From Bacillota bacterium (GTDB taxonomy: Bacteria > Bacillota_I > Bacilli_A > RF39 > UBA660): 64,000 bases of DNA. The notes below the pieces were generated by a model. The model saw only the letters and a program-made list of their open reading frames with translations, had not been told where the DNA came from and searched no databases. The position numbers and the translations under genes are program-made. Position 1 is the first letter of the stretch, and each line of letters opens with the position of its first letter. Of this stretch, positions 7,858 through 58,708 are shown piece after piece. The stretch lies in the NCBI GenBank assembly GCA_021771185.1, contig JAETPN010000002.1, positions 1 to 64,000 of the forward strand, read 5' to 3'.

Positions 7858-7885
7858 TTGACAAAATTTTAGAATATGATATAAT
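7858..7885 (+). promoter_or_regulatory. Strong sigma-A-type promoter of the OLE-like RNA
   Basis: Perfect TTGACA (7858-7863), 16-nt spacer, extended TG, perfect TATAAT (7880-7885). It is among the best promoters in the window and has no ORF directly after it, so the product is RNA starting near 7892. Confidence 0.85.
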
Positions 7886-7891
7886 GAATTA

Positions 7892-8467
7892 CATAAATTG
7901 ATGGCGCATTATTCTAGTCAATTAATTTATTATGAAGGCGGGGCTAAAAATCCGCTAAAGAGCATATCTGTGAAACTTTTGGTGCTTGCTTCATACGCCC
8001 AGTTTGGGGTGAGTGCTGAAAGGTAGGGTGTTGGGCGCTCGTAATGGCATACGACTCCGACCCACCATCTGTGGAGACCTAAGCTTGTTATAAACGCGAA
8101 GATTTGTGACGACTTAGGATTAAACCTACTTTGTGGCGCAAGTTATGAGTAGTGTAGCTTGTCTTGAGTGATGATAGGGGATAGATGACCAGCCAAGTAG
8201 TCTATGGCCAAAATTATTTGGTATCGCATCTTGAAACTATGATTGCAAAAAAGAATTAATAATAAATATTGTTTGAGGAAAACTCCTAGAGTGTTAAGTC
8301 TGCAGGATTGCAGTGTGCACTAAGTGGCAATCAAGTCATATATTTGGTGACAATATATCTAGTTTTTTAAAGGGGAACCGCAACATGGTAACGTGGTGTA
8401 AAACTAGGGGAAATCCTACTTGACCTAAAGGCGCAAGGTTTACTGTATGGCATGCCATCTTTTTTTT
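7892..8467 (+). ncRNA. ole: Large structured non-coding RNA, probable OLE RNA
   Basis: Some 575 nt without a plausible protein gene, richer in G+C than its surroundings and full of local inverted repeats (for example GCGGGG...TCCGC and AGCA...TGCT near 7940-7990). It starts from a near-consensus promoter. The 5' end GATGGC (7900-7905) is complementary to GCCATC (8454-8459), directly before eight T (8460-8467), so the two ends can close the molecule at a terminator. A gene for a four-helix membrane protein starts 23 nt further on. OLE RNAs (ornate, large, extremophilic) are about 600 nt and lie upstream of the gene for their membrane partner OapA. Size and context fit; I could not align it to the OLE consensus. 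Other large RNA classes (ROOL, GOLLD) remain possible. Confidence 0.75.
8441..8467 (+). terminator. Terminator/3' end of the OLE-like RNA
   Basis: The self-complementary ATGGCATGCCAT followed by C and eight T. The same 3' arm can pair with the 5' end of the RNA at 7900-7905, so the hairpin and the closing stem are alternatives. Read-through would be needed to express the membrane protein from the same promoter. Confidence 0.6.
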
Positions 8468-8490
8468 GTTATAAAATATATAGGAGAATT

Positions 8491-44334: not shown

Positions 44335-44417
44335 TTGCGGTTGGTAATGAAACAAAGGTAGTAAATGAAGCCGCTTAAACCCTAGTTGAGATAAATACTC
44401 AACTAGGGTTTTATAAT
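44335..44417 (+). terminator. 3' hairpin region, probable terminator
   Basis: A perfect 14-bp stem (44377-44390 with 44398-44411), loop ATAAATA, followed by TTTTATAATTT. Upstream, GCGG...CCGC (about 44337-44374) could form a second helix. It separates the protease gene from the next promoter at 44467, so it cannot act as that gene's leader. The T run is short. Confidence 0.55.
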
Positions 44418-44466: not shown

Positions 44467-44496
44467 TTGACAATTCAAAATGGGGGGGGGTATAAT
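44467..44496 (+). promoter_or_regulatory. Promoter with G9 tract in the spacer (candidate phase-variable)
   Basis: Perfect TTGACA (44467-44472) and perfect TATAAT (44491-44496) separated by 18 nt, of which the last nine (44482-44490) are all G. Loss of one G would give the optimal 17. Slippage in this run would tune or switch expression of the LRR protein. No other run of this kind was noticed in the window. Confidence 0.8.
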
Positions 44497-44519
44497 GGTT
44501 TTAGAATAGGAGTGAAAAG

Positions 44520-45704
44520 ATGAAGACAAGAAAAAAACAAAAAGTGATTATAGGAACTCTATGTGCGATCATTGTAGGAATGGCTATGGGGTATGCCGCT
44601 TTAAGCCAAATCTTAACGATCAATGGAACATCGAAAATTAATGGTGACTTTAAGATCGAAATCACAAAAATCGAAGAAAGTATGATGTCAGATGCTACAA
44701 CGATTACAAAAAATGTCGTTGGATCAACGACAGCTAACTTTACAGTAGATTTAAAAAAACCAGGAAGTATAGCTTCGTATGATGTAACCGTAGAAAATAA
44801 AGGTACAGTGAATGCTATCCTAAAAAGTATTGAGGGAGTAGATGAAAGCGACCTAAAGGAACCTGTAGATATTACTTATTTTGTTTGGGGAGTTGAAGAA
44901 GGTGATTCCCTAAACGCCGGAGAACAGAGAATCTTTCATGTTGATGTTGAATGGAAAGTAAGTTCAACGAGCGTACCAACAACAACGAAAAGTTTAACAC
45001 TAAAACTAAATTATGAGCAAAATACTGGAAGTGATATAGTTACACCAGTAGAAGAATTCTTTGAAATTGATGAAACAGGCACTATTACTGATTATACTGG
45101 AACGAATAAGGCTATTATAATTCCAAGTACGATTCATGGAACTACTGTAACAAGTATCGGCAAAGATGCATTTAAGGATAAAAAATTAACACATGTTGTC
45201 ATACCAGATAGTGTAACTAGTATTGGACAAAATGCATTTTCTAGTAATAAAATAACAAGTGTAGTGATTCCTGATAGTGTAACTAGTATTGGTGGTTATG
45301 CCTTTTATGGTAATCCATTAACGAATGTAACTTTATCAAATAATATAACAGAAATTAGCGATGCTTTATTTTTTGGAGCACAATTAACTAGTATAGTAAT
45401 TCCAGCTAGTGTAACACGTATTGGAGAAAAAGTATTCTGGGGCAGTCGATTAACTAGTATAACGATTCCAAATAACGTAACAGAAATAGGTAAAAATGCA
45501 TTTTGGAATAATCAATTAACCAGTGTGGTTATACCAGAAAATGTCACAAGTATTGGCGAAAATGCTTTTATGGACAATTCAAATTTAATAACTATTGTGA
45601 ATAAAACAGGGCGTCCATATGATTGGAATAATATCCTTGGTTTGGGGACAGGAACTCCAGCGATCACGGGAACTTATGGACCAGTTACAGTAACTACTGA
45701 ATAA
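44520..45704 (+). CDS. BspA-like leucine-rich-repeat surface protein
   Basis: A 394-residue protein: a basic start and hydrophobic helix (residues ~9-29), a beta-rich domain with DVTVENKGTVNAIL (~35-170, like secreted TasA/camelysin-type proteins), then about six LRR_5 repeats of 23 residues from ~190 (VTSIGKDAFKDKKLTHVVIPDS and variants SVTSIG, AF, LTSIVIP) and a short tail. BspA-type repeats mediate adhesion to host proteins and other bacteria. AGGAG precedes the ATG. No LPXTG motif is seen, so anchoring is probably by the N-terminal helix. Its promoter contains a G9 run. Confidence 0.85.
   Translation: MKTRKKQKVIIGTLCAIIVGMAMGYAALSQILTINGTSKINGDFKIEITKIEESMMSDATTITKNVVGSTTANFTVDLKKPGSIASYDVTVENKGTVNAILKSIEGVDESDLKEPVDITYFVWGVEEGDSLNAGEQRIFHVDVEWKVSSTSVPTTTKSLTLKLNYEQNTGSDIVTPVEEFFEIDETGTITDYTGTNKAIIIPSTIHGTTVTSIGKDAFKDKKLTHVVIPDSVTSIGQNAFSSNKITSVVIPDSVTSIGGYAFYGNPLTNVTLSNNITEISDALFFGAQLTSIVIPASVTRIGEKVFWGSRLTSITIPNNVTEIGKNAFWNNQLTSVVIPENVTSIGENAFMDNSNLITIVNKTGRPYDWNNILGLGTGTPAITGTYGPVTVTTE
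45180..45600 (+). repeat. In-frame LRR-coding repeats
   Basis: About six imperfect 69-bp units coding the BspA-like repeats; for example AGTGTAACTAGTATTGG occurs twice (about 45210 and 45275). Recombination between units could change repeat number. Confidence 0.7.
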
Positions 45705-56918: not shown

Positions 56919-57116
56919 ATTGAATTTATTGGTTTGAAGGAGTATATTTAACCGTTCTTTTAGAGAGTGTATGGTTGGTGAAAATACATAGAGGGTTAAA
57001 TAGAAAGACATCAAATGATACAATAATCGTATGTCTGCGTTAAAGATTAAAGATAGCTAAAGTCTATGAAATAAGGTGGTACCACGTAAATTACGTCCTT
57101 ATATCTAGACTTTTTT
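56919..57116 (+). promoter_or_regulatory. T-box riboswitch, Asp (overlapping His) specifier
   Basis: Stem I base pairs TATTG (56927-56931) with CAATA (57021-57025) and TTTGA with TCAAA. The specifier loop has AGTA (56941-56944) opposite GAAAGACAT (57003-57011), above it ATTTAACC/GGTTAAAT. In this loop the specifier is GAC (57007-57009), an Asp codon; CAT (57009-57011), a His codon, overlaps it by one base. The distal part AGAGAGTGTATGGTTGGTG...ATACA is canonical. The T-box AATAAGGTGGTACCACG is at 57070-57086 and the terminator pairs AGTCTA with TAGACT before six T. It should switch on the operon when tRNA-Asp (perhaps tRNA-His) is uncharged. Confidence 0.93.
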
Positions 57117-57136: not shown

Positions 57137-58708
57137 ATGATGAAAAACTTAGATTTTGAGGATAATGTATTTTTTAATGAAAAATTAAAAAAAGCTTTAC
57201 CATATCAGATTAAATCTTATGATGCTATATTTTCACTTACAAGAAAGGAATTTGATGAAATTAAGAGAGTTTATGTATATATGTGTCGTGTTATGGACGC
57301 ATACGGAGTTGGAGTCGCCCCAAATAATTTAATTAAAGTATTATCGAGAGATCTTATGTACCTGGAGTTTATGAGGGATGTATTAACTGATTTTACTGTA
57401 CCTTCAGAGACTCCAGATTTATCTACTTCTGTTATTTTTTATGATTTTGAAAAGTTTATAATACAAACCGATTCTAAGAAAAGAACAAGTAGATATCGAT
57501 GGTACTACCCTTTTATGCACCAAAATATGTTATCTTCTACAGCTATTGCAAAGTTGAAAGTGTTAAGTGAATTGGAGTTTAAATCACTCGTTTTAGATTT
57601 GTTAGAAAATGTTGTAACTTCGTTGAAAAATGTAGAAATCAATCTTAATGAAAAACAAACACAATTCTTATTATATTTTTTAGAGTTAGAGGTATTTTAT
57701 GGTTCTGAAGAAAAAGCTTCCTGGAATAGTTTTAAATTACGTTCATCAGAGAAGTCAAAGGATTTAACTCATAAAAAACATTCTTTTACTTATTCTTATA
57801 TAACTCATACAGCAGAAGATTTCCAGAGTAAATATAATATCCTAAGACTAGAGTGGAGGAACGATTATTTATATGAACTGCTTAAGATCATACCAGATAA
57901 ATTTAGAGACTTTTTTGGAAATCGTTGGAATGATATAATGAATCCATTTTTATGGAATCACTGTAAAAAAGAATATCCTGAATTATATAAGATATACCAA
58001 ATGAGTGAAACGACATCTCTTATTGTAGGATATTATGATGATATGGAAGATGATTTATTAGACATGTTTAAAATGATCAACCAAATGGGTAAAAATTTCC
58101 CAGAAATGGATCAAATCGAACAGGACTTGAATAATTTTAAATGTGAACATTTTACAAAATCTTCTACTTATAGTCTATCTCATATTAATCAAAAATTTAT
58201 AAGCGAAAAAATTGAAGAATTTAATAATTTTACTCCAAAAAGCAATTCTAAATTTGAATTATATACATTATTTATCTTATATAAGTCATACAACAAATTT
58301 ATAAATGATCCACAATATTCGAAAGCACAGAGAACTTATTTAGAAAAATATTTTGAATCATTAGGCAATGATTTATTAGAAATAAATACTCCAATTATTA
58401 AACAAGAATTAGAGCAAATGTTAAATTTTTATATGAACGAAATTAAAAAATTTACTTTGAACTCAAATTCCATTACAGGAATAAAGTTAGAAGATCATTT
58501 TGAAATATTAAAAGAAAATCTATTAGCGTTGGATACTAGAGATCAATTACAACTATATTTTGTTGGAATAAAAATCAAAAATAATGATTTACTAAATTTA
58601 ACAGAGTGGTTTTCTCTACTAGAGAAAATGATCAATAAATATAACATCAATGATAAAAAAGAATATAAAAAATATATTTTAAAGCCACAGAAAAGAGGGA
58701 TAAAATGA
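57137..58708 (+). CDS. Unknown 523-residue protein inside the T-box-hisS-aspS operon
   Basis: A soluble, mostly alpha-helical protein with no signal peptide, no membrane helix and no motif I recognise. It is Lys, Asn and Phe-rich, more AT-rich in feel than hisS beside it. AGGAGG precedes the ATG (57137 or 57140), and its stop overlaps the hisS start by 4 nt (ATGA), so it is firmly part of the operon and under T-box control. Usual hisS-aspS operons have no such gene. It may be a recent insertion or a lineage-specific partner of the synthetases. Confidence 0.75.
   Translation: MMKNLDFEDNVFFNEKLKKALPYQIKSYDAIFSLTRKEFDEIKRVYVYMCRVMDAYGVGVAPNNLIKVLSRDLMYLEFMRDVLTDFTVPSETPDLSTSVIFYDFEKFIIQTDSKKRTSRYRWYYPFMHQNMLSSTAIAKLKVLSELEFKSLVLDLLENVVTSLKNVEINLNEKQTQFLLYFLELEVFYGSEEKASWNSFKLRSSEKSKDLTHKKHSFTYSYITHTAEDFQSKYNILRLEWRNDYLYELLKIIPDKFRDFFGNRWNDIMNPFLWNHCKKEYPELYKIYQMSETTSLIVGYYDDMEDDLLDMFKMINQMGKNFPEMDQIEQDLNNFKCEHFTKSSTYSLSHINQKFISEKIEEFNNFTPKSNSKFELYTLFILYKSYNKFINDPQYSKAQRTYLEKYFESLGNDLLEINTPIIKQELEQMLNFYMNEIKKFTLNSNSITGIKLEDHFEILKENLLALDTRDQLQLYFVGIKIKNNDLLNLTEWFSLLEKMINKYNINDKKEYKKYILKPQKRGIK

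Follow-up and report, generated by a model that had tools for sequence, protein, structure and literature searches.

In Neisseria meningitidis a poly-G tract between the -35 and -10 boxes of porA controls transcription through the spacing of the boxes (PMC7864442). In an E. coli reporter the tprL promoter of Treponema pallidum was active at a tract length of G8 and dropped close to background at G10 (PMC7864442). A promoter homopolymer of Bordetella pertussis fim3 likewise controls a surface structure (PMC1891110, PMC10172299). BspA-like proteins with repeat-length variants in metagenomic reads are described for Candidatus Mycoplasma girerdii (PMC5476646). The sequence-only reading of the DNA analyzed here had named porA and opc as precedents; porA is a true spacer case, whereas in opc a poly-C tract is described as lying over the -35 region (PMC7864442). 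The words Firmicutes and Gram-positive are absent from a 2025 review of phase variation (PMC11868660), and within an incomplete coverage of the literature, poly-G promoter spacers of gut Bacilli or Clostridia turned up in no paper.

We analyzed a stretch of 64 kb, here called the window, from the genome of an uncultured gut bacterium. The arrangement claimed beforehand, perfect TTGACA and TATAAT boxes with an 18-nt spacer ending in nine G in front of a BspA-type leucine-rich repeat (LRR) gene, can be read directly from the DNA (Table 1), and the contig is continuous through the tract. TTGACA/G9/TATAAT at 44467-44496 is the sole 12/12 sigma-70-like promoter of the region, and the hairpin at 44377-44411 forms the boundary between the upstream gene and this promoter. 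The encoded 394-aa protein is of the BspA-type LRR class: it matches LRR_5 with 169.5 bits (gathering cut-off 27.7; 3.6e-50) and resembles in sequence solved LRR surface proteins in the PDB, e.g., 4gt6. Its N-terminus consists of a hydrophobic segment and a domain common to the paralogs of the genus and is followed by the LRRs. From LRR_5 and the N-terminal hydrophobic segment the protein is predicted to be secreted or surface exposed. Elsewhere in the window we observed an OLE RNA (7885-8474, full-length model match, 411 bits) and a T-box leader (56926-57103) 5′ of the gene beginning at 57137.

Table 1. Features of the window locus (window coordinates) and the related upstream element of two congeners (locus handles)
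Feature	Position	Strand	Basis
Terminator-like hairpin, 14-pair stem, T-rich tail, ends upstream transcription unit	44377..44411	+	hairpin search
-35 box TTGACA	44467..44472	+	sequence and promoter scan
Promoter spacer, 18 nt, ATTCAAAAT+GGGGGGGGG	44473..44490	+	sequence
G9 tract at 3′ end of spacer, candidate slippage tract	44482..44490	+	sequence
-10 box TATAAT	44491..44496	+	sequence and promoter scan
AGGAG-containing ribosome-binding site, position approximate	44507..44512	+	sequence only
BspA-type LRR protein ORF, 394 aa, ATG at 44520	44520..45704	+	LRR_5 3.6e-50
CAT-G9-TATNTG element in genomes G001/G002	L214, L219, L232, L234, L236, L237, L248-L263

The GC content of the window is 29.5% and the G9 tract at 44482-44490 is its only G/C run of at least 7 nt in 64 kb. 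In the whole genome G runs of this length occur at seven places and just two of them reach 9, the expectation from a first-order model being 0.27 runs of at least 9 per genome; the run is indeed extreme for AT-rich DNA, as had been claimed. The window promoter thus has a homopolymer between -35 and -10 as in porA, and its tract has at least eight nucleotides, is long enough to slip and lies beyond chance. The two G9 runs both lie in spacers between exact TTGACA and TATAAT boxes before BspA-like paralogs, the second one (TTGACA-ATTTGAAATG9A-TATAAT, 19-nt spacer) driving a 317-aa paralog. Two further paralogs of this genome are informative: L213 has retained the promoter with an 18-nt spacer and a tract interrupted as GGGAGAAGG, and L208 has no G tract and a spacer of 16 nt. 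In the same genome (G000, C32:3224, L012) we also noticed a G8 run 5 nt 5′ of the ATG of a serine-hydrolase-like ORF, which occupies the ribosome-binding position and is possibly a translational variant.

Within the family, a run of at least eight G followed by TATAAT within 0-3 nt is present in 41 of 291 genomes and in 31 of 150 genera (forward-strand site counts of this census are inflated by overlapping matches). The reversed pattern, used as a control, is found in three of the 291 genomes, and the C-run version of the search, applied to 16 genomes, gave only 6 places, all in two of them. About 190 genomes of the phylum were sampled outside the family, and 3 of them have the full TTGACA/poly-G/TATAAT arrangement. 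When 84,980 species were scanned, at least 118 stretches came up, and uncultured gut Bacilli and Clostridia contributed many of these. Among the 124 matches listed, 108 lie within 250 nt of an ORF of 60 aa or more, which has a strongly hydrophobic N-terminus in 81 of the 108 cases; some of the matches in GC-rich genomes are probably due to chance. One genome, G185, has many poly-G/TATAAT sites without an exact TTGACA and in addition five C8-GTTTATAAT sites. We also considered a phage feature and rejected this reading, since a search of viral_contigs for the poly-G promoter gave a single match.

A hydrophobic N-terminus is found downstream of 46 of 53 family sites compared with 22 of 57 genes of the window. 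The downstream domains comprise BspA LRR, pilin-type N_methyl with DUF285 or fn3 and InlB-type repeats, as well as camelysin-like and phage tail collar or baseplate-like domains; cytoplasmic types such as ABC ATPase or glycosyltransferase are few. We conclude that the poly-G/TATAAT architecture is recurrent in the family, strand-specific and tied to envelope genes. Such a link to families of variable envelope genes hints at selection for switching.

The spacers of the poly-G promoters differ in length from those of ordinary TTGACA-TATAAT promoters in the same genomes. Ordinary spacers measure 17 nt in 27 of 46 cases and 18 nt in 14, while the poly-G spacers have their mode at 19 nt and measure 17 nt in only 5 of 82 cases. 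At least 19 nt are found in 54/82 poly-G promoters versus 1/46 ordinary ones (P about 6e-14, to be taken as indicative only because paralogs are not independent). A dip at 17 nt is seen in the wider collection as well (7 of the 124 matches listed). Lowering the threshold from G8 to G5 gained just 2 of the 82 sites; the tract lengths therefore cluster at 8-12, and the spacer bias is not an artefact of the G8 requirement. If the usual optimum applies, the poly-G promoters would be in weak or OFF states in most consensus genomes; alternatively, the geometry of the G tract displaces the spacing optimum.

Among the relatives, tracts with the same flank occur in different lengths: G11 and G12 with CAACCCTA, G10 and G11 with ATACCCATC, G8, G9 and G10 with TTTACTTTTA, and G13 and G16 with AAATGAT. 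Moreover, in other genera the tract length is not the same in cassettes of one genome that are otherwise almost identical, namely G9/G6 at 97%, G9/G8 at 98% and G11/G12 at 94% identity downstream. Length differences are thus established between near-identical cassettes in other genera only, with one genome per species compared. A separate observation concerns G145 (L297-L316), where about 20 expression cassettes are nearly identical in their 5′ regions, have diverged in the DNA upstream and have poly-G promoters ranging from G6 to G10; this set is a large candidate phasome.

For the window gene we lean towards a phase-variable promoter tuned by slippage. The G9 tract would be a slippage-prone spacer within the sole promoter of the gene, and replication slippage would add or remove one or two G. 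The changed G count would alter the distance between the -35 and -10 boxes, now 18 nt, and with it the transcription rate, so that the level of the BspA-like protein may vary from cell to cell. That the tract slips in this species and that its length affects transcription is what we infer from the recurrence of the arrangement, with varying G counts, before the surface-protein genes of relatives, which makes an on/off switch probable. MutS is present in the window genome, so there is no loss of mismatch repair to raise slippage. MutS_I is found in 278 of the 291 family genomes, including that of the window, and three of the 13 genomes lacking it carry poly-G promoters; with no clear link between its absence and these promoters, mismatch-repair loss was rejected as the cause.

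Nearer to the window genome the picture is less favorable. The spacer arrangement was not found in the congeners (G001-G004; G001, G002 and G004 again in the family census). Instead, G001 and G002 together have about 20 copies of CAT-G9-TATNTG located 9 nt (8 nt in two) 5′ of the -35 boxes of paralogs, and the window genome has one site of this upstream class, a G8 at L010 (C17:267092), at equal distance from -35. The G block of the element is 9 nt long in nearly all copies, even where it is interrupted (GGAGGGGGG, GGGGGAGGG, GGGGGGAGG), and the window spacer tract has the core ATG9TAT in common with it. The G9 block of the genus might therefore be a conserved element, e.g., regulator-binding or DNA-shape, which is held at a length of 9 and is found upstream of -35 at many paralogs and in the spacer of the window gene by happenstance. 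Nearly all G tracts of the genus, upstream class included, are exactly 9, as are both spacer tracts of the window genome. Such uniformity is expected more of a fixed motif than of a tract free to slip, and it lowers our confidence in phase variation at the window locus. We nevertheless regard the fixed motif as rather unlikely, as the spacer arrangement in other genera varies in length and in its flanks, and spacer and upstream region are different places for a regulator. The claim of a phase-variable promoter is accordingly upheld in part: recurrence, strand and gene bias and the cassette length differences elsewhere speak for it, while the almost uniform nine G of the genus speak against it.

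The tract could also set the basal strength of the promoter, its geometry moving the optimum to 18-19 nt, with slippage incidental and the consensus state ON. The poly-G promoter spacers do cluster at 18-19 nt in many genomes, and the interrupted paralog L213 still has 18 nt; however, near-identical cassettes are spread across several lengths and the tie to variable envelope genes points, as suggested above, to switching, which makes this explanation improbable in our judgement. Homopolymer calls in metagenome assemblies can err by one, and many sites of the relatives lie near contig ends. A chance homopolymer or an assembly error is nonetheless very improbable, given the unbroken window contig and an enrichment that greatly exceeds the reversed and C-run controls; the contig ends are accounted for by paralogous 5′ regions. 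Since such regions produce the same breaks, we also rejected the enrichment of tracts at contig ends as a sign of length heterogeneity.

To sum up, the arrangement claimed beforehand holds up and belongs to a wider pattern that recurs among relatives. Phase variation is the best explanation and probably applies in this species. We are evenly divided over the more general proposal that small-genome uncultured gut Bacilli have a genome-wide poly-G-spacer phasome with up to tens of paralogous envelope genes in some species, mostly 1-2 nt above the optimum and hence mostly OFF, in which single-G losses would switch genes on independently; the window locus would be a small two-gene instance. Phase variation in gut commensals has so far been studied chiefly via invertible promoters. 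If the proposal is true, uncultured gut Bacilli and Clostridia make wide use of a second route, the promoter-spacer homopolymer, switching can be measured straight from existing metagenomic reads, and each genome offers dozens of natural promoter series for the effects of spacing and G-tract geometry on transcription.

The closest mechanisms are those of porA and tprL. With porA the window locus has in common a poly-G spacer before the gene of a surface protein, predicted in our case; porA belongs to another phylum, however, and is a single gene whose length effect was measured. The tpr genes (tprL and tprE/G/J) likewise have poly-G tracts of about 8-10 in the promoters of a surface-protein family, but there is no gene homology, and in our case perfect sigma-70 boxes flank the tract. 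The fim3 promoter is BvgA-dependent. A promoter homopolymer before the gene of a surface structure, predicted in our case, is common to both systems, while fim3 has a C-tract and another promoter arrangement. Candidatus Mycoplasma girerdii also has BspA-like surface proteins, but its dinucleotide repeats affect the reading frame and not the promoter spacing.
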